54,341 bases of DNA, taken from the NCBI GenBank assembly GCA_028711215.1, contig JAQTSO010000001.1, positions 58,340-112,680 on the forward strand, written 5' to 3'. Below the pieces are notes generated by a model, which made no database searches, had not been told where the DNA came from, and was given only the letters and a program-made list of their open reading frames with translations. This DNA is from Endomicrobiaceae bacterium (GTDB lineage Bacteria; Elusimicrobiota; Endomicrobiia; Endomicrobiales; Endomicrobiaceae). This document shows positions 3,624 to 43,313 of this stretch, in pieces. Position 1 is the stretch's first letter; each line of letters begins with the position of its first letter. Made by a program: the position numbers and the translations under genes.

Positions 3624-4505
3624 TTAGTAACGTTTTAATAATCCGTCAATTAATCCCTTATATATGTTTTTAATTTTGATTAGTTTTTGTTTTTCAAAAA
3701 ATAATATTTTTAAAGGTGCAAACAAAAGAGAACTTCTCAGTAACATAAGTGACGTATTAAACGGGGCATAGAAAAAATATGTTCTAATCATATATACCGC
3801 ATTTTTTGAACTGTAATATCTTCTTTCCGGCGACAAATTTGCGATTTTAAAAAATAATTTATATACGGGGTTGCCGAGTTTATGAAGAAAATTAATGTTT
3901 GTTGCAATTATGCATTTATATCCTTTTTTTCTTAATTTAAAACAAAAGTCAACATCTACTTTGTCTATAAATAATTTTTCTTCAAAAAAATCTATTGAGT
4001 CAAAAATTTCAGTTTTCATTAAACCGCCGGATGTTATAATAAAGGGTTTATTTTTCCAAATAATATTTTCAACAGCCGGAAATGAATTTTTTTCTACATT
4101 TGTCTTAAATCCAGAATGGTCAATTTTCTCTTTATATTGGGGAGCAATTAACATTATTTTATTTTTATCCGGTAATCTTTCATATGCGGATAAAAGTAAT
4201 TGGTATGTTCCTTCAATAAATTCACTGTCTTGGTCCAATGTCAAAAGCCATTTGTATTTATTAGCTATTGCGTATTTTGCACCCTGATTCAATGCTTTTG
4301 CAATTCCATAATTTTTGTCATTATAAATAATTTTAACTTCTTCAGGTAAACCTTGCAGGATTTTTTTTGATTTTTCGCAACTGCTGGCATTGTCTATAAT
4401 AATAACTTCATCAACCTGATTTTTTATTGACTCATATAATCTGATGATTGATTCATCAGGTTCGTAACTTACTATAACAGCACATATAAGTTTGTCAGAT
4501 GTCAT
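3624..4505 (-). CDS. Glycosyltransferase family 2 (rhamnosyltransferase-like), paralogue 1
   Basis: A 293-residue GT2 enzyme for polysaccharide assembly. It shows ICAVIVSYEPDESIIRLYES at the nucleotide-binding start, IIIDNASS near residue 40, LLTLDQDSEF (metal-binding Asp pair) near residue 90, and FIDKVDVDFCFKLRKKGYKC in the acceptor region. The C-terminal part is hydrophobic or amphipathic, as in RfbF/WbbL-type rhamnosyltransferases. It is a close paralogue of the gene at 5605-6474: long stretches are identical, for instance around YNDKNYGIAKALNQGA. Only a GT9 gene separates the two. The gaps to its neighbours are 3 bp and 10 bp. Confidence 0.88.
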   Translation of the reverse strand: MTSDKLICAVIVSYEPDESIIRLYESIKNQVDEVIIIDNASSCEKSKKILQGLPEEVKIIYNDKNYGIAKALNQGAKYAIANKYKWLLTLDQDSEFIEGTYQLLLSAYERLPDKNKIMLIAPQYKEKIDHSGFKTNVEKNSFPAVENIIWKNKPFIITSGGLMKTEIFDSIDFFEEKLFIDKVDVDFCFKLRKKGYKCIIATNINFLHKLGNPVYKLFFKIANLSPERRYYSSKNAVYMIRTYFFYAPFNTSLMLLRSSLLFAPLKILFFEKQKLIKIKNIYKGLIDGLLKRY

Positions 4506-33517: not shown

Positions 33518-36500
33518 ATGAAAAAAATCGTATCTGTTTTAGTATCAGTATTTGTGCTTTATTCATTTGTTGCCGTTGATACGATACAAGCATTTGGTAT
33601 TTCTAATCTCAATATGGCTGACCCGGATGTTTTAAAGATAAACCAATCTCTTGGGAATGTATCAAATAGTTTTATTAGTGAAAAACAAGATAAATTAATA
33701 GTTTATATTCAGGATTTGCATGCTAACCCTTCCGTTCAAAAAAATATAGCAAAAATTATCGATAATCTGGATAAAAATTACGGTGTTGATAAAATACTTG
33801 TGGAAGGTGCTCCTTTTTCAAAATTAGATACCGGCATAATAGATGCAGTAAAGGAATATAACTTATCAAATTTGCTTCTCAATGACGGAATATTATCAGG
33901 AACTGAATACTATTTAGCTAATTACAATAAAAACACACCTGTTTACGGATTAGAAAATTGGGATACTTACCTATCAAATGTTAAAAGAGCCGGAAATATA
34001 TTGGCCGAAAAAGAATATAACCGGAAAGTTTTTGATAAATTTGAAAAAGAAATCCACTCAAAATTAAAAAAATCAAAAAAATTATTACCGTATATTGATT
34101 TTGATGTTTCAAATCCGGTTTTGATTGGTGAATTAAAACAACCGATATTGAAATATGATGCTTTGTATAATTATGTTGAACTTTCTCAACAAATCCTGGA
34201 AATAGATAAAAATAAAGTTCAAAAAGAATTGGAAGAATGTCTCAAAGATTTAAAAAACACCTTGACATTTGAAAGTTATAAAAATTTAATTTCCAAATTA
34301 CAGCAATCCGATTACTATCATTATTATCTGAAGTTAAGTCAGCAAATTGCAGACAATAATGAGCTTGCAATAAAATACCGTAATTTATTCCAGTTCTTGA
34401 GATATTATCTGGCACAAAAGAACATAAATAAATACAGTGTTGTAAATCAAAAAAATCAATATTTCCAAGACTATTTGAATTCCTTAGAAGATGAAAAATC
34501 CAAATATGACGAGTTGTTCGTTTTAAAAATGACACAGTTGTTCAAGGCATTTTTAAATCTGAATATTTCCGAACAAGAATATATATTTTTTGTCAATAAT
34601 TATGACAGGTATATAAATCTCATAGATAAAAAAATACCCGGGATTCAGGCAGAATATGATGAAATTTTTGATACGAATGAAATTTTAAAATATCATAAAG
34701 TAAATATTGACAGGACAAAAATATTTTTTGAAAACATATCCGCTTTATTTGAAAATAAATCAGACAATTCAAAGAAGATAACTGTTGTTGTGTCAGGCGG
34801 ATTCCATAGTTCATTGCTGGAATGTTTAAAGGCTAAAAATATATCCTGTTTAATGATAACTCCGGAAATTTCAGAAAATACAAAAGATAATAATTACGAT
34901 AGAATTCTTTTAAGTACAATAAATAATGATTTTCAAGATCAAGCATTGGCAAATATTCTTTTTATTTTGGTAAAAAGCCCTGTTATTCCGCAACAGACAA
35001 AGTACTTTTTTTCAAAACAATTAGTATCAAATCTTATAAAAATATATAAAACAGATAATCCTGAAAGTATTCGCCAAATGTTGTTTTCTGTTGCTGAAAA
35101 ATATAGTATGCAAATTGATGTTGAATACAATAAATCAGAGTTTATAGTTTTTATTGATAAAAATAAAAATATATTTAAGATAAATGACGGAAAAATAGAC
35201 TTAAAATCATCGACATATGTTAAATCCGCTGACATATCTTTAAAATCTAAAATAATTGCCAAAATAAAACAATTCTTCAGTATAGAACAATCTTTGTTTA
35301 TGGAATTAAATTCCAAATACAGGGGCGTTATTTCAAGAAGATCTGACGGTAATGCTTCATTTAACTGGGCACAAATCAATCATTTTTTAAAGAAAAAAGA
35401 TGAAGTATATAAACATATAGTCGATTTTGGAAATGCTTTGCTGGGAAGCGGAAATGCAAAAAAATATGAAGGCGTAGAAATTAAAAAATTCGACAGCAAA
35501 GGGAAAGTTGAACTTAATGAGGACGGTACTCCAAAAATACTTAAAAAGATAAATGTAATTATTGAAGGTGATTTAAACAAATATATTACAGATGAACTTA
35601 TACAGGATATATTTGATGAAATAATGAAAGATTTTGAAAATGATGAAGTATCAAATATCAGAGATACAATTGTAATAGGAATATTATCTAAATCACAGAC
35701 GCTTTTTTCAGACCATGTAAACAGCGGTTTTGTAGGAGTAAATCATGCTATATTTGATATAACTGATGAAGATGTTTTAAAAGCTTTTCTGTATGCCGGA
35801 CTGACACATGAGTTTACCCATGAATTTTCTCCGAAAAAAGTATCAGAAGAAGAATTATTGTTAAATGATGTTAAGTATATCAGACATTCTGTTGCACAAA
35901 TTCTTGATCCGAATATATCCGAAGAACATTATCCCGAATTTTTCAATGAGCAAATTATTAATAGGATTTTTAATGCAACGTCGGGGATTTTCCCGAAGAA
36001 ATCAAGGTTTTTTAATAAGATAAAAAATTATAAAAACAGCATAGAAGATATTGCAAGTATTTTTAACAGAAATGACAAAGGGTATCTCACCGAAAAAGAT
36101 GGTCTTAGATACGGGCAATGGCAACATGCTTATCAGGAATATCTCAAAAACAAATCTGATAATCAGGAAAAGTTTTTTTCATTGTTAGTCCACAGTGATA
36201 ACAGTAAAAATATAGATATGATGGATTATCTGCGTCAGAAGGAAGAAGGATTAAAGGTTGGAAAAGTTGATTCCAGAATACAAAACATATTGTTTGGTGT
36301 GTCCTCCGATGAGGAGCAATTATCAGAAAATGAAAACGGAGATGTAGTGGAATCGTTGAAACAAATTTTGACATCAGCCGGAATTGATGAAGGAATCCAG
36401 GAAGAAATTATGGATGAATTTAAAAAAAATATATATGAATGTATGGAATTATTGTATAAAAGAATGCCGAGATATGCATTTTACAGATTCTATACAGACC

Positions 36501-39500
36501 AAACCTCCGTGCATGAACACGGATTAGGGCACTGTTTGGATGTATTGGCATATTCAATAAAAATTATAGGAAGAAGCGGAGATGTTAATAAATTAATTTC
36601 TTCTTCTACAGATGATAAAATTTCAATAAAGGAACTTGTTTATTCTGTTTTTATGCATGATTTGTCCTGTGTTTTTTTCAGAGATAATCATGAAAAAAAT
36701 TCTGCAGTTTGGAGCAGGGCTATTTTGGAAGGCGTAGAAGACGAAGAAATGATAAATGCCGTATATAATGATTGTTTGGGACATAAAAAAATCGAAATGG
36801 ATCGTTCGTTAATAGGCTGTATCCTGCATGATGCAGATGCTTTGTCGGCAACTTTAAACATGAAAAGAATTTTAAATATTTGGCTGAACCAAGATAACTA
36901 TTTGATGGATAAAAGATTATCAATCAATGAAAGAATTGCCAAAATAAAAGCAGGAATGTATTTATATCAGGATGGCGGTGACGGGGTCAATGATTTATTG
37001 AGACATTATTTAAGGTCTGACCCTGCAAGGTACAAAACAATAGGCGGAGCATCCATTATAAAAACAAGGTTTGATGATATGTATGTAGTCAGAAATTTTC
37101 TTGAAGCTCAAAGAGAATATATTAAAACAAAAAACAATAAACAAGGTAATAAATTTACAGATAGAGATGTTGATGAAGCAATAGAAGTTGTAAACGAGAT
37201 AATGACAATTGAGTTTGAAGGATATGACAAGCAGGAAGGTAAACCAATTATAGTGCAAAATGAATCTTTGTTTACTTTTAAAATAAAAATGAAAATTTTA
37301 TGGCAGATAATTAAATACAAAATATTTAAACAAGATATGTATTTTAACAGAAATATTGTTTTTTCCGACATACATGGCGGATATACCAGATTTTTGGAAT
37401 TAATGTATCAAATGCTTGCATCCAGCAGAGATTTAAAGATTTCTAATTATTTTGAATTGTTGCATAACGGTAAAGATCAAAATGGATATGAAATATCCGA
37501 TGCTGAAATAAGAAGGATGCAGTCTGAAATAGAAACTGATATTTTAAATAAATGGAATGTAAGGGGCAATAAGAGCACTCTTTATATATTGGGAGATATT
37601 CTTGACAGAGGTCCGAAACAGGTTGAAACTTTTATGTTTGTGAAAAAATTGGCAGAGTCGGGCAGGGTCAAGTATGTTATCGGCAATCATGATTTATTTG
37701 CATCAATGAACTTGTTTGGAATGCATTTGCCGATTACAGACAAATTTAAGGGCATACCAAAAGATTATGTAATACCTGAAGGATATATAAATAAAACAAA
37801 AGTTAATATATATCAGGATTGGTACCATAGAGTTACAAATATAAGAGATGTGACAAGATCCAAAGATATGTCTTATTGGTTACAGGTTTTTGCTCAACGC
37901 ACAAAATATTCAACAAATAGACAAAATGAGGTATGGAATGAGGAATTAGCTAAGATAAGTACAGAGTTTAAAAAGAGTTTTGGTTTTGCCCAGCACAACA
38001 GTGTTAAAAATATTCTCTCAAATACCGATAAAAACATTTTTGGACTTGACGAAAATCAGGCAATGTTGGAATTCAATAAAGCTTTTTTTGGTATAAAATT
38101 TGACACTGAAATTTCAACAGGGATGAGAGATGTTGAACAAATGGCTGTCAATTGGTGGATAAATAAATTGGAAGAAGCAAAAGAGTTAAAAGATCAATAT
38201 CAAGAATATGGAAGTTATTGGGATAATGTTATTGAAGTTATAGAAAAAGTTATAGAAGAACAAAAGAAAAAATATCAATATGAAATAAACAACGGAAATT
38301 GGGGCTGGGCTGTTATTGATGCGATGATGTACAGAACCTATGAAAGTATGGAATGGTACGCTTATGATTATATAAAACATAAGGGATGGGGAGAAGCCTT
38401 ATTGAGTCAGATAAATTCCTATTTGGATTTTAAGAAGGGAAGTGAATTAAATAAAAAGCTTAATGATAAATTTATAAATTTTGCGGTGAATAAAGATGTT
38501 AAAAAAAGCGAAATAATGGATATAATAGTTCAGATGGAACATTTAGGTATATCACAGGCGTATACAAATTATTTAACCAAAAAATTAGATATGGCAGTGA
38601 AAGTGCAAAATCAGGAGGAAATAGACAGAATAACAAATTTAATAGATACAAAAATTTCAAGATATAACAGATTGACAGGTTCCGAAAAGTCTTTTGTGAA
38701 ACGTGAACTTTGTGATCTGGTGATACAACTTGATTCTTTAGGTATGCCTCAAATTACGGTTGAGGATTTATTAAAAAAGATTCTTGAATTGCCGGATAAT
38801 GAACGGGCAGGAAGGCAAAAATTAGTAGATGAAAATATAAAAAATTTACTTCAGGAACTCTTGATTTATTCCAATCTGGATAAAAACAATAGAATGATTG
38901 CTGAAATGAGATTGAACGCAATAATGCAAAAGCTGGAAGAGTTAAATGTATCAAAATCCCTTTTGGATTATTTAAACGGCAAGATTGCGCTTGTAATTTT
39001 TACAGCGGATGAAAAAATTACATTTATAAATCAAACGATAAAAACATATAATGATTTGTCGCAATCGCAAAAAGATTCCGCTAAAGCTATGATGTGGATG
39101 TTGCTTTTGGAATTGGAAAATGAGAGGCTTCCTCAAACAATAACGGAAGAAGTGGCAACCAGAATAAAAGCATTGCCGTTAACCGAATTTGAAAAATCAC
39201 AGAAATCTAAAATGAATATGATAGATGATGTGTCATATTTTAATAATGAAGAAATGAAATCCATAATTGATTTTTTCAAAAACAACTTTGCATTATACAG
39301 AATTGATGAATACGGATTTTATTATATGCATGCTCCGTTACCTTATGATGAATATGGAGATGTATCCATCGGACGTGTTGCAGAAGACGGTAAGTTTGAA
39401 GAATTCGATGCAAAAGGGAAAAGAATAAAAGGATTTTATTATAAAGGAGTGCATTATACAGGGGAAAAAATTTGGGACGGTTTTTCAAAAATAGCAAAAG

Positions 39501-40654
39501 ACATAAAAGAATATGATATAGACAAAGATGATCAAAGTGAAATATTTGAAGCTTTGGCATTAATAAATGCAATTTATGCGGATAATACAACCAGAATAAA
39601 ACCGGAATATATAGCAAAATATAGTATTAATTTTACGATGGAAGAGATGAACAAAAATATAGGGATGGGAACTGTAATTCAGGGGCATAATCCAAAAGAT
39701 AAACTTGCAAAAAACGGCATCACGAGTTTTGCTTTAGATCAGGAGGGTAAACCTGTAGCTATTTTTGTTGACGGCAATATGTCGCCGGCTTATGCAAAAA
39801 CAAGAGGGGCCGGTTCATATGTTGAAATTTCTCCTCAAGGAATTTATTCTGTAGGATTTCCTTCGGGAGAGGCAACGGTTACCGTAGGATTAGAAGATAA
39901 AATAAATGAAGATGATGTGATAAAATCAATAATTTCAAATATTGCCGGATCCTTTAAATCAGTAAACTTTATATTTAATATCTCAATTAAAATTATTAAT
40001 TCGGCTAAAAAATTACATGAATTGTTTAATCCGAAATTAATAAAAACTACAAATACAACTATGTTAAAAGTTGTTGACAAAATAACGAGTGATAAAGATA
40101 TTGTTGAAAGATTAAATTACAACGGTATCAATGCCATAGGTATAGTTTTTAAAGATGATTTTGAAAAAAACATTTTAAATTTAATAGAGCCTGTAGTAAG
40201 AGAAAAATCTGTAAAAGGGACAGAAATAGAAAGGTTAAATATAGACGGTGTTGAAGTAATCATTGAATTTGTTACTATTAAAATTGCAAATAATACATTA
40301 AAAGTATTGTCAATGGATTATGATAAAACAAAACTAACCGAAGAATTGCTCGTGCAATATCTTATTAGACAGATTAGTAAAAAGAAAAACAATAAGTATT
40401 CTCAATATATCGGCAAAAAAAGAAATATTTTGTTAGCGGTTGCATATCAACAAAATCAGAATGAATACAGAATGTATGAAGAAATTAAATCAAAAAACGG
40501 CAGTCTGTTATTTAATAAAGTCATTAATAAATCATTTAATATTATCCCGTTCATTTACGATATAAGAAAAGAAAACCCAATTGGTGAGTTTATTGATGAT
40601 TTTGACAAAAACTTATCATTTGATATAATAGAGAACATGTTGTCGGCCGCATAG
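33518..40654 (+). CDS. Giant exported protein: EreA/ChaN/TIKI-like, HExxH, HD and class III FBPase-like domains
   Basis: 2378 residues, starting at the ATG at 33518 that opens a clear signal peptide (MKKIVSVLVSVFVLYSFVAVDTIQAFG); the frame extends upstream but would overlap the ABC-F gene. Residues 55-450 match the N-terminal domain of the first giant protein: IQDLH with H68, E96, GGFH with H430. An HExxH motif follows (H764-E-F-T-H768). Residues 990-1110 look like an HD domain (H999, H1001, H1005, H1047-D1048, H1104-D1105). Residues 1280-2110 carry metallophosphatase motifs in order: SDIHG (D1284, H1286), GDILDRG (D1360, R1364), GNHD (N1390, H1391), a later YMHAPLP (H1938), QGHNP (H2057), and then DGNMSPAYAKTRGAGSY. 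The last block and the order resemble class III fructose-1,6-bisphosphatase, with a 200-300 residue helical insert. No function is known; substrate is inferred only from resemblance. Confidence 0.82.
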   Translation: MKKIVSVLVSVFVLYSFVAVDTIQAFGISNLNMADPDVLKINQSLGNVSNSFISEKQDKLIVYIQDLHANPSVQKNIAKIIDNLDKNYGVDKILVEGAPFSKLDTGIIDAVKEYNLSNLLLNDGILSGTEYYLANYNKNTPVYGLENWDTYLSNVKRAGNILAEKEYNRKVFDKFEKEIHSKLKKSKKLLPYIDFDVSNPVLIGELKQPILKYDALYNYVELSQQILEIDKNKVQKELEECLKDLKNTLTFESYKNLISKLQQSDYYHYYLKLSQQIADNNELAIKYRNLFQFLRYYLAQKNINKYSVVNQKNQYFQDYLNSLEDEKSKYDELFVLKMTQLFKAFLNLNISEQEYIFFVNNYDRYINLIDKKIPGIQAEYDEIFDTNEILKYHKVNIDRTKIFFENISALFENKSDNSKKITVVVSGGFHSSLLECLKAKNISCLMITPEISENTKDNNYDRILLSTINNDFQDQALANILFILVKSPVIPQQTKYFFSKQLVSNLIKIYKTDNPESIRQMLFSVAEKYSMQIDVEYNKSEFIVFIDKNKNIFKINDGKIDLKSSTYVKSADISLKSKIIAKIKQFFSIEQSLFMELNSKYRGVISRRSDGNASFNWAQINHFLKKKDEVYKHIVDFGNALLGSGNAKKYEGVEIKKFDSKGKVELNEDGTPKILKKINVIIEGDLNKYITDELIQDIFDEIMKDFENDEVSNIRDTIVIGILSKSQTLFSDHVNSGFVGVNHAIFDITDEDVLKAFLYAGLTHEFTHEFSPKKVSEEELLLNDVKYIRHSVAQILDPNISEEHYPEFFNEQIINRIFNATSGIFPKKSRFFNKIKNYKNSIEDIASIFNRNDKGYLTEKDGLRYGQWQHAYQEYLKNKSDNQEKFFSLLVHSDNSKNIDMMDYLRQKEEGLKVGKVDSRIQNILFGVSSDEEQLSENENGDVVESLKQILTSAGIDEGIQEEIMDEFKKNIYECMELLYKRMPRYAFYRFYTDQTSVHEHGLGHCLDVLAYSIKIIGRSGDVNKLISSSTDDKISIKELVYSVFMHDLSCVFFRDNHEKNSAVWSRAILEGVEDEEMINAVYNDCLGHKKIEMDRSLIGCILHDADALSATLNMKRILNIWLNQDNYLMDKRLSINERIAKIKAGMYLYQDGGDGVNDLLRHYLRSDPARYKTIGGASIIKTRFDDMYVVRNFLEAQREYIKTKNNKQGNKFTDRDVDEAIEVVNEIMTIEFEGYDKQEGKPIIVQNESLFTFKIKMKILWQIIKYKIFKQDMYFNRNIVFSDIHGGYTRFLELMYQMLASSRDLKISNYFELLHNGKDQNGYEISDAEIRRMQSEIETDILNKWNVRGNKSTLYILGDILDRGPKQVETFMFVKKLAESGRVKYVIGNHDLFASMNLFGMHLPITDKFKGIPKDYVIPEGYINKTKVNIYQDWYHRVTNIRDVTRSKDMSYWLQVFAQRTKYSTNRQNEVWNEELAKISTEFKKSFGFAQHNSVKNILSNTDKNIFGLDENQAMLEFNKAFFGIKFDTEISTGMRDVEQMAVNWWINKLEEAKELKDQYQEYGSYWDNVIEVIEKVIEEQKKKYQYEINNGNWGWAVIDAMMYRTYESMEWYAYDYIKHKGWGEALLSQINSYLDFKKGSELNKKLNDKFINFAVNKDVKKSEIMDIIVQMEHLGISQAYTNYLTKKLDMAVKVQNQEEIDRITNLIDTKISRYNRLTGSEKSFVKRELCDLVIQLDSLGMPQITVEDLLKKILELPDNERAGRQKLVDENIKNLLQELLIYSNLDKNNRMIAEMRLNAIMQKLEELNVSKSLLDYLNGKIALVIFTADEKITFINQTIKTYNDLSQSQKDSAKAMMWMLLLELENERLPQTITEEVATRIKALPLTEFEKSQKSKMNMIDDVSYFNNEEMKSIIDFFKNNFALYRIDEYGFYYMHAPLPYDEYGDVSIGRVAEDGKFEEFDAKGKRIKGFYYKGVHYTGEKIWDGFSKIAKDIKEYDIDKDDQSEIFEALALINAIYADNTTRIKPEYIAKYSINFTMEEMNKNIGMGTVIQGHNPKDKLAKNGITSFALDQEGKPVAIFVDGNMSPAYAKTRGAGSYVEISPQGIYSVGFPSGEATVTVGLEDKINEDDVIKSIISNIAGSFKSVNFIFNISIKIINSAKKLHELFNPKLIKTTNTTMLKVVDKITSDKDIVERLNYNGINAIGIVFKDDFEKNILNLIEPVVREKSVKGTEIERLNIDGVEVIIEFVTIKIANNTLKVLSMDYDKTKLTEELLVQYLIRQISKKKNNKYSQYIGKKRNILLAVAYQQNQNEYRMYEEIKSKNGSLLFNKVINKSFNIIPFIYDIRKENPIGEFIDDFDKNLSFDIIENMLSAA

Positions 40655-40666
40655 AACGGAGGAGTT

Positions 40667-41677
40667 ATGAAGAGTATAGTTATTGCTTTTGGATTAATGG
40701 CAACTTTGTCTATGGTTGCTTGTGATAAGCTTGACAGTATAATCAATAGTGATGTTAATGTGTCGACGGATACTGTTGTTGCAGTATCAACAGATACTGT
40801 TGATGTAGCTCCCGTTCCGGAAGAAATTAATGTGTCAACAGTGGTTGTAAAAACTGTAAACGTTAAAAAACATTCAAAACCCAGGGTGTCAGTAAAAACA
40901 GCAAAAGATTATTACACAAGCGGCACTTTGAAAGCAAAAAGAGGAAGTCACCTTGATGCAATTTCGGATTATGACAAAGCAATAAAATTAGATCCGTATT
41001 ATGCAGAAGCCTATAATGCCAGAGCACTTACAAAAGACAGTATAAATGATTTTGACGGGGCTGCTGCTGATTATGAAAAAGCGATACAAGTACGTAATAT
41101 TAAAAGCAATAAAACACAAGCAACGGACAATGCTGATATAAAAAATGTAACTTTTCATATGCAACAAGGAAAAATGAAAATAGATTTATATGACTATGAC
41201 GGGGCAGATAAAGATTTCACAAAAGCTATAAACATAATACCTTCATATGGTCCCGCTTACATTGCAAGAGGCGATGCAAGACTTAAATTAGAAAAATATT
41301 ATGATGCTTTGAGCGATTACAACAAAGCAATGAAATTTTGGCCAAAACTAAATTATGATTCATTCCGTAAAATCGGCAATTTGGAAATGCACTTTGAAAA
41401 TTATGACAAAGCGGTTGTCGCCTATAGAAACGTTGTGGATTATGATAAAAATAATATAGATTCACGTTATAAATTGACAGATGCATTGATAATGAGCGGT
41501 AATTTTTCAGAAGCTTTAAATTCAATAAGAGTATTTTATCTGATATCAAAAGACCCGTATGTGTATGCAAGTGATTATCACAGATGGAATATAGCTATTA
41601 ATAAATACAGACAGGATTCTACTGCCAACGAATTGAAGTCAAAAATAAACAAATTAAAAATAATAAAATCAAACTGA
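40667..41677 (+). CDS. TPR-repeat lipoprotein
   Basis: A 336-residue protein with a lipoprotein signal ending at C19 (LSMVAC), followed by a valine/threonine-rich spacer (residues 25-75) and tetratricopeptide repeats. The clearest repeats are at about 82-115 (HLDAISDYDKAIKLDPYYAEAYNARA), 116-140, 165-200, 200-235 and 240-270. TPR lipoproteins usually act as assembly scaffolds in the periplasm or at the outer membrane. It begins 12 bp after the second giant gene with a strong GGAGGAG ribosome site, so it is the last gene of the block and may hold the giant proteins at the envelope. It resembles the lipoprotein at 45689 in design but is not an obvious duplicate. Confidence 0.85.
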   Translation: MKSIVIAFGLMATLSMVACDKLDSIINSDVNVSTDTVVAVSTDTVDVAPVPEEINVSTVVVKTVNVKKHSKPRVSVKTAKDYYTSGTLKAKRGSHLDAISDYDKAIKLDPYYAEAYNARALTKDSINDFDGAAADYEKAIQVRNIKSNKTQATDNADIKNVTFHMQQGKMKIDLYDYDGADKDFTKAINIIPSYGPAYIARGDARLKLEKYYDALSDYNKAMKFWPKLNYDSFRKIGNLEMHFENYDKAVVAYRNVVDYDKNNIDSRYKLTDALIMSGNFSEALNSIRVFYLISKDPYVYASDYHRWNIAINKYRQDSTANELKSKINKLKIIKSN

Positions 41678-41750: not shown

Positions 41751-43313
41751 TTATCTTGTTTCGGCATTTTCAAGATATTCTGCGGCATAATTAAAACCGA
41801 TAGAATTTGCAATATCTTTTGCTGTTTTGTTATTAGAATTTTTCATGCTTAAATCTGCTTTTAGCGAAACTAATAATTCAACTGTTGCAATATTTTTTGC
41901 TTCAACCGCATACATCAAAGCCGTATTGCCTTTTTTATCACAAGAATTAACATTTATTTTATTATCTTTTATTAAAGTTTCAACAATTTTATTGTATCCA
42001 TATTCAACAGCATAGATAAGAGCATTTTTTCCGTATTTATCGGTTTGAGATACATCCAATTGCTTTTTTCTAATAATTGAATTTATAATATCAAAATTAC
42101 CTGATTCTATCGCCAGCATCAATCCGGTTTTACCGTCGTTGTTTGATATGTTAATGTTAATTTTATTATTTATGACAAATAATAAAGAGTTGAGATTAGA
42201 ATTCTTAACTGATAATAATAAAGCATTGTCGCCGTCATTTGTAATTTGATCTATATCTGCACCTTTAGACAACAAATAATCTGCGACTTGTATATCGTTT
42301 TCAATAATTGCTATCAATAAAGCAGAAAAACCGTTTTTGTTTGCGACATTAACATCTGCTCCGTTACTTAATAAATATTTAATTACTGATAAATTATCTT
42401 TTTTTCTTTCTTGAATGTATACTAAAATATCTTTTTCATTTGTTGCAAGAGGATCATTTAGCTGACTAATAATTTGCTTTGTTAAATCAAATTGAATAAA
42501 AGAAACAGATGCCATAAGTGCCGTATTGCCGTTATAATCCTGATAATTAACATTAAATCCTATTTCTTCAACTAAATACTGAACAGTTTCAAGATTACCT
42601 ATAGACGCACAAGCAATCAATGCATTTATCCCGTTTAAATTTACTTGTGAAGGATTAGCGCCAACCGATATTAAATATTTAATAGTGTCTATATTGCCTA
42701 TGGATGCCGCTAACAAGAAAGCAGAGTCTTTGTTGAAATTTAATGCGTTAACAGTAGATTTTTTTTCTGTTAAAAGTTTAACTACCGATAAATTATTTTT
42801 TAGAGATGCATACATTAACGCAGTAAAGCCAAATTTATCTTTTAGATTCGGATTGGCACGATTTTGCAATAACAAACTTACAACTTGTTCATTCCCGTTA
42901 GATGAAGCAATCATAAGAGGTGTTAATTTATTATTGTTTGCCAGATTTATAGATGCTCTTTTCTCTATTAAAAGTCGGACAATTTCTAAATTCCCGACAT
43001 TGCAAGCAATAAATAATGAAGAATTACCCGAGGAATTCACACTGTTTATTTTTGTCTTTTTATTGTCCAATAATAATTTTACAGTTTCTATATGTTCATT
43101 GGAAGTTGCCAATGTCAGGGGAGTATTACCCAATGAATCTTTTTTATTAACGTTTTCTCCATTTTTTATTAAATCTGCAACAACATAAGTATATCCGTTA
43201 CTTGCAGCTGAGAGTATATCTTCAGCATCATAAGCGGAATAAACTTTTGAAGTAAAGAACAAAATAACAACAAATGAAAATATCAGTGAAATTTTGCCTG
43301 CGGATAGTTTCAT
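41751..43313 (-). CDS. Exported ankyrin-repeat protein
   Basis: A 520-residue protein with a signal peptide (residues 1-26, ending VYSAY) and about 14 consecutive ankyrin repeats of near 33 residues covering almost the whole chain. Typical units read NSSLFIACNVGNLEIVRLLIEKRASIN and GFSALLIAIIENDIQVADYLLSKGADI. Two units (about 260-310) are longer. Ankyrin repeats bind proteins; exported ones are common in host-associated and predatory bacteria, but a host role is not shown here. AAGGGAGAGG precedes the ATG. The gene is convergent with the TPR lipoprotein and shares its terminator. Confidence 0.9.
   Translation of the reverse strand: MKLSAGKISLIFSFVVILFFTSKVYSAYDAEDILSAASNGYTYVVADLIKNGENVNKKDSLGNTPLTLATSNEHIETVKLLLDNKKTKINSVNSSGNSSLFIACNVGNLEIVRLLIEKRASINLANNNKLTPLMIASSNGNEQVVSLLLQNRANPNLKDKFGFTALMYASLKNNLSVVKLLTEKKSTVNALNFNKDSAFLLAASIGNIDTIKYLISVGANPSQVNLNGINALIACASIGNLETVQYLVEEIGFNVNYQDYNGNTALMASVSFIQFDLTKQIISQLNDPLATNEKDILVYIQERKKDNLSVIKYLLSNGADVNVANKNGFSALLIAIIENDIQVADYLLSKGADIDQITNDGDNALLLSVKNSNLNSLLFVINNKININISNNDGKTGLMLAIESGNFDIINSIIRKKQLDVSQTDKYGKNALIYAVEYGYNKIVETLIKDNKINVNSCDKKGNTALMYAVEAKNIATVELLVSLKADLSMKNSNNKTAKDIANSIGFNYAAEYLENAETR

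Follow-up and report, generated by a model that had tools for sequence, protein, structure and literature searches.

A giant, putatively exported protein of an Endomicrobiaceae bacterium carries a PPP phosphatase related to class III fructose-1,6-bisphosphatase and shares its head and tail with a large protein family

Results

We analyzed a 54,341-nt stretch (the window) of contig JAQTSO010000001.1 from a gut bacterium of the family Endomicrobiaceae (Elusimicrobiota; genome G000), in which an intact open reading frame (ORF; 33518..40654, + strand, ATG at 33518 and stop at 40654) encodes the giant multi-domain protein P0001 of 2,378 amino acids (aa), with orthologs among relatives. Taken as a whole, P0001 is best explained, with a probability that we put at about 0.55, as an exported multi-enzyme protein whose PPP phosphatase is not a fructose-1,6-bisphosphatase (FBPase), and as one member of a giant family built on a single plan and delivering enzymatic cargo. 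Direct observations behind this reading are the order of the domains, the homologies, the preserved metal-site motifs, the common head and the tail statistics. The initial annotation of the gene came close with its enzyme assignment but was one step too specific, and the more interesting result, the head and tail held in common by a large paralogous family, was absent from it. All features given below lie on the + strand unless stated otherwise.

A PPP phosphatase with an affinity to class III FBPase

The first half of the phosphatase (37346..37777) contains SDIHGG (residues 1283-1288), GDILDRG (1359-1365) and GNHD (1389-1392), and the second (39203..39892) MHAPLP (1937-1942), QGHNP (2055-2059) and DGNMSPAY (2085-2092). 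All five PPP metal-site motifs are present and follow the order seen in class III FBPase, just as first annotated; with the predicted fold, they place the domain in the PPP superfamily. By single-sequence search it is a generic PPP enzyme, matching PF00149 over residues 1280-1415 (E 6.5e-6). Membership in PF06874, the class III FBPase family proposed initially, was not borne out: the own genome gave no match at E 1e-3, and at a looser limit a match covering only 38 profile positions scored 14 bits (E 0.00983), below the cut-off of 27.

Profile-profile comparison was more informative. Nine class III FBPases served as references, seven from plasmid records and two from viral contigs (a pattern search for the enzyme in viral contigs matched three stretches, two of which encode it). 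An alignment of 14 of the 15 excised family members, one with a run of N being left out, matched the references in the half after GNHD over 198 columns with E 1.9e-9 and a probability of 96.3. With alignment A3 (18 rows, of which 17 were used and one was excluded as too short), the second half matched at E 2.8e-9 and the first at E 6.9e-6. For the second half, the best of 30 column-shuffled FBPase alignments reached E 0.087 and the reversed alignment E 0.19, and a control set made up of short PPP proteins from the same phylum (11 sequences), which matched in the first half at E 1.9e-13, gave E 0.07. Because 2.8e-9 stands against 0.07 to 0.19 in the controls, the kinship with class III FBPase in the half after GNHD is, as judged from sequence profiles, both real and specific, and the relationship to this class suggested initially is upheld. 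A generic ApaH/PrpE enzyme was considered and rejected, as the NCBIfam models for these match about 54 residues of P0001 and the short PPP set fails in the second half.

The phosphatase does not itself appear to be a class III FBPase. Six motifs, YTRSK, [KR][GP]TExF, QWGNHD, TFER, DGG[FY][SC]xxY and TGI[AG]GYT, are found in 9/9 references and in 0/15 family members (TFER occurs in one of 14 Omnitrophota and stand-alone relatives), and identity to the references is 15.7-17.8% over 472-503 aligned positions. For these reasons we regard it, on sequence grounds, as a sister PPP subfamily with a helical subdomain of its own. A housekeeping FBPase was likewise rejected, given the score below the PF06874 cut-off and the missing class-specific motifs. 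Where a single helical insert had been annotated, two lie between GNHD and MHAPLP. The first, a conserved helical subdomain (37778..38395, residues ~1421-1626), is present in relatives as well, according to alignments A1 and A3, and reads QMAVNWW here and KMSINWW in most of them; the other (38396..39202, residues ~1627-1895) is, judging from relatives, alignment and model, helical and full-length only in the window protein and a relative of the same genus. The metal site is well preserved within the Elusimicrobiota set (GNHD 15/15, GD..DRG 15/15, GH.P 14/15), although identity to the window protein is only 28-41% outside its genus; among the Omnitrophota and stand-alone relatives, regular expressions found GD..DRG in 11/14 and GH.P in 10/14.

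An AlphaFold2 model built from A3 (mean predicted local distance difference test score, pLDDT, 82.1; predicted template modeling score, pTM, 0.71) gave a range of PPP matches in VIA-align, with Z from 17 to 22. The top match was a cold-active protein-tyrosine phosphatase (PTP) of Shewanella (1v73; Z 21.9, 266 residues, 3.5 Å), which resembles the model in its PPP core but is a chain of 331 residues at 14% identity, lacking the helical subdomain and the inserts. The fourth was the F16PC chain 9a7j_A (Z 20.8, 332 residues, 5.0 Å), which we take to be the Bacillus class III enzyme and which gave the longest alignment among the matches listed. Many PPP enzymes followed at Z 17-19; PP1, PP2A, calcineurin and ApaH are among the matches in the overall range. 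The preference for FBPase over other PPP subfamilies that had been annotated is favored by sequence profiles, while for the fold another subfamily may match better, the Shewanella PTP aligning at least as well. With class III FBPase (PF06874, Bacillus-type Fbp), P0001 has in common the order of the five motifs, a helical insert that separates GNHD from the HGG-equivalent, and a C-terminal D-G-x-x-S-x-x-Y element; it differs in its signal-peptide-like start and its fusion to other enzymes.

In our survey of 99 relatives, 20 matched the phosphatase at E <= 1e-3, and 17 of these matches lie in long frames with one or both conserved halves; G084 and G088 encode short PPP proteins, and G041 matches in the insert region only. 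Compared over the phosphatase region, Candidatus Proruminimicrobium quisquiliarum is the closest named relative (72% identity). Among 285 genomes of the phylum Omnitrophota, 44 matched, 12 of them below E 1e-50; the frames reach 5,049 aa for the 12 strong matches and 26,531 aa for the weaker ones, which are partly generic. Five of 294 genomes of the Saccharibacteria order matched, strongly only the one harboring L132, and the placement of L132 and of L123, on a Coriobacteriales contig, possibly reflects transfer or mis-binning. In a search for relatives in viral contigs, 50 stretches fitted a pattern and none was confirmed, and a plasmid tblastn with the first half returned ApaH-like and other short pieces, at no more than 23% coverage among the best 15 of 22 records.

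A head domain common to giant proteins of two phyla

P0001 begins with a signal-peptide-like N-terminus (33518..33595, residues 1-26), in which, as judged by eye, a basic start leads into hydrophobic residues and a plausible site of cleavage; orthologs whose 5′ end is intact likewise show a hydrophobic N-terminal stretch. The signal peptide proposed in the initial annotation is to that extent supported. The head domain follows (33602..34957), with IQDLH at residues 64-68 and GGFHS at 427-431. Of 28 aligned head copies, all have H68, Q74, E96, G97 and R399; D66, E130, E146 and H430 are each found in 27. In the TIKI superfamily (Bcr135/Ere, ChaN, RRSP), the residues are given as E3900, H3902, E3930 and H4030 for RRSP and H85 and E113 for Bcr135 (PMC6254334), so that the first His and the Glu lie 28 residues apart in the head (68-96) just as in Bcr135 (85-113) and RRSP (3902-3930). 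A later His, in GGxH (427-430), is a further likeness; unlike in the superfamily, Asp (D66) rather than Glu stands at the D/E-x-H position. The head gave no match against Pfam, NCBIfam or PDB profiles, and a structure-library search with a model containing it returned HD, peptidase or unrelated long proteins. The EreA/ChaN/TIKI-like domain of the initial annotation therefore stands as a TIKI/EreA/ChaN-type candidate by active-site spacing alone.

Head copies are numerous. The own genome yielded 15 rows in one search and 13 in another, and 46 of the 99 relatives carry the head: 36/59 in the family, 7/7 in other families of the order, 2/12 elsewhere in the class and 1/21 elsewhere in the phylum (the number of copies in each relative is a minimum, only the best candidates being scored). 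It is also present in 105/193 Omnitrophota genomes, in frames of up to 35,113 aa and as stand-alone proteins of ~520-550 aa. From these sequence comparisons, a putative signal peptide followed by a TIKI-type head is common to giant ORFs of Endomicrobiales and Omnitrophota.

A C-terminal tag of the endomicrobial giants

Endomicrobial giants carry the tag [IM]L[SA]AA-COOH at their C-terminus; in P0001 it reads MLSAA-COOH (40637..40651). Eight of the 10 own-genome family ORFs with a visible stop end in [FILMV]Lx[AS]A, the exceptions being L077 and L078. The motif was derived from own-genome ORFs and orthologs and then tested with a DNA pattern blind to ORFs. In five head-bearing genomes, chosen from those in the pattern count, 30 of 41 matches stand at the end of an ORF with 782 aa or more (G009 7/7, G018 7/7, G011 7/13, G004 6/9, G000 3/5), whereas in nine head-lacking genomes none of the 28 matches followed, out of 37, ends an ORF of more than 119 aa (followed: G005 5/5, G006 5/5, G007 3/4, G010 2/4, G012 2/2, G014 2/2, G016 3/3, G066 3/8, G069 3/4). 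The difference is significant (Fisher p 1e-10), and counting as a hit one more G004 match that is cut by a contig end, and was scored as a miss, gives 31/41 and p 2.8e-11. The matches are not fully independent: G009 and G018 belong to one genus and have common orthologs, and five of the 41 are P0001 itself and its orthologs in G004, G009, G011 and G018. In the own genome, two of the five matches to the strict pattern end chance ORFs of 8-9 aa. The reversed pattern occurs 0 times in G000, G009 and G018 and 8, 13, 14 and 16 times in G001, G002, G015 and G068, respectively, and because of such numbers raw tag counts alone are not evidence. Among head-bearing ORFs, 27/33 end in the motif (a set that includes loci fetched by the pattern), against 0/91 ordinary ORFs of 400-1,200 aa.

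The Omnitrophota giants L261, L262, L263, L268 and L154 end in -LMSL, -LRSL, -GRSL, -YSV and -WSV, and such short tails are perhaps a second tag type. We rejected the idea that the endomicrobial tail is an ssrA-like degron: the tag that ARAGORN gives for the own transfer-messenger RNA (tmRNA; L168, 1503-1894) is dissimilar, though that tag is doubtful, being atypical, and the prediction may be off.

Other modules, paralogs and neighboring genes

Between head and phosphatase, P0001 carries an HExxHE metallopeptidase-like region (35342..35860), with HEFTHE (residues 764-769; 35807-35824) nearly invariant in alignment A4, and an HD-superfamily hydrolase domain (36416..37186) containing MHDLS (1046-1050). 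In a second model (residues 58-1257; pLDDT 76.4, pTM 0.48), the former aligned with an M1 aminopeptidase-like structure (Z 8.6, 114 residues) and the latter with 2pq7 (Z 10.9, 168 residues), both modest structural matches. Although it has no Pfam match, the modeled fold and the His/Asp residues conserved in A4 support the HD assignment, in line with the initial annotation. In the G004 ortholog (L093), the head is joined directly to the phosphatase and the HExxH and HD parts are missing, which shows that the modules can be separated.

Paralogs that share the head of P0001 bring other cargo. A Pfam scan of 12 ORFs, namely P0001 and 11 paralogs (the L083 fragment was not scanned whole), detected in the paralogs SecA DEAD-like, GA, HD_5, MFS and cytidine deaminase domains, PPDK together with PEP-utilizer and LMW-PTP domains, and weak CheR and Rce1-like matches; L081, a contig-edge fragment holding the end of a head domain, carries RamC_N. 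At the limit used, Pfam matched nothing in three of the scanned ORFs (L080, L085 and L086). In L076, a giant that also has the SecA DEAD-like domain, GA modules lie at the C-terminal end in view. PPDK, SecA DEAD, RamC-like, cytidine deaminase and LMW-PTP domains usually require cytosolic ATP or substrates, and it is because of these that delivery into another cell may be proposed for the family.

The window also encodes a paralogous giant of 4,488 aa, P0002 (18155..31621), which has the same head domain and a tail reading MLAAA-COOH. Inspection of P0002 by eye shows HExxH-type stretches that recur, membrane segments resembling CPBP proteins and containing EExxxR, and an HG...SCHSG stretch reminiscent of caspases, with sub-threshold Pfam matches only. 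Directly downstream of the P0001 gene lies a gene for a TPR protein (40667-41677); the opposite strand carries one for a 520-aa ankyrin-repeat protein (41751-43313).

Discussion

As we see it, P0001 would be exported by the Sec pathway, and its phosphatase would be a two-metal PPP phosphomonoesterase sharing ancestry with class III FBPase. Because the FBPase-specific motifs are absent and the helical subdomain is its own, another phosphoester, either a phosphoprotein or a small phosphometabolite, is the most likely substrate, to be met outside the producing cytoplasm. The plan of the family would comprise a signal peptide, a hydrolase head of TIKI type and exchangeable enzymatic cargo, to which Endomicrobiales add the tail [IM]L[SA]AA; the cargo would work inside another cell after delivery, and the tail may be a second sorting or processing signal that is read after export. 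The shared head and tail suggest a common export or delivery system. One could go further and regard the giants of Endomicrobiales and Omnitrophota as one system, with a Sec leader, a TIKI-type head, interchangeable cargo including the phosphatase, and lineage-specific C-terminal tags that a dedicated machinery recognizes in order to release the cargo or deliver it to another cell, a broader proposal that we hold only tentatively.

Several points weigh against the reading of P0001 as an exported, cargo-delivering enzyme. Its export, activity and delivery are predicted from sequence and models, and a secretion machinery serving the family was neither sought nor identified. L132 and L123 are stand-alone phosphatases with no evident signal peptide, and the Omnitrophota ORFs examined lack the endomicrobial tag. 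On the structural side, class III FBPase is not the best match of the phosphatase, and Foldseek gave no match at E <= 0.001 with either the phosphatase model or that of residues 58-1257.

The alternative that we take most seriously, while considering it rather doubtful, is a periplasmic or surface phosphatase that serves the producer, acting on sugar phosphates of its envelope glycans or on phosphoproteins, possible substrates of the kind put forward initially, or on scavenged phosphoesters, with no delivery involved. The signal-peptide-like start and the lack of an identified injection machinery, for which no search was made, would fit it, the head, HExxHE and HD domains could also function in the periplasm, and PPP enzymes need no ATP. 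Against this, the same-head paralogs carry domains that usually draw on cytosolic ATP or substrates, and the Pfam scan revealed no envelope-glycan domain fused to P0001. That the PPP fold is inactive and kept as a structural or binding module is improbable: some Omnitrophota or stand-alone relatives do lack a motif, but the metal-site motifs of the Elusimicrobiota are almost always retained in spite of the low identity outside the genus.

A true class III FBPase working in gluconeogenesis is the least probable of all and can practically be set aside. The motif order and the profile match speak for it, as does the statement of Mies et al. 2024 (PMC11257099) that Endomicrobiaceae are generally without fructose 1,6-bisphosphatase, so that no other Fbp would be at hand; the signal-peptide-like start, the six class-specific motifs (0/15 versus 9/9) and the score below the PF06874 cut-off speak against it. 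An exported phosphatase could not, moreover, fill the cytoplasmic Fbp gap of the family, because the domain would lie outside the cytoplasm. We prefer, then, an exported phosphatase of other specificity, carried by a giant of the shared-head family.

In size and in the phyla concerned, these proteins resemble giants already described: huge proteins are enriched in Elusimicrobiota (PMC11573180), giant genes in the phyla Elusimicrobiota and Omnitrophota are touched on elsewhere (PMC12057145), and Seymour et al. 2023 (PMC10066038) report that most giant ORFs of the Velamenicoccia (Omnitrophota) show little conservation and have few annotated domains. Giants of these phyla have also been described as having no known function. 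In contrast to such descriptions, the present family has a shared head and a tail tag, which go unmentioned in the portions of these sources that were accessible. The words giant, secretion and signal peptide are absent from the main text of Mies et al. 2024, and our literature search, which left subscription papers and preprints mostly outside, found that a head held in common, a signal at the tail and effectors are not described for these groups.

With its phosphatase, P0001 shows a fold of central metabolism recruited into an apparently exported multi-enzyme protein. A head common to two phyla, together with a tail signal that can be counted, would turn the giants into one tractable family with a handle for finding further members, and the shared head and tail make where and how these giants act a testable question.
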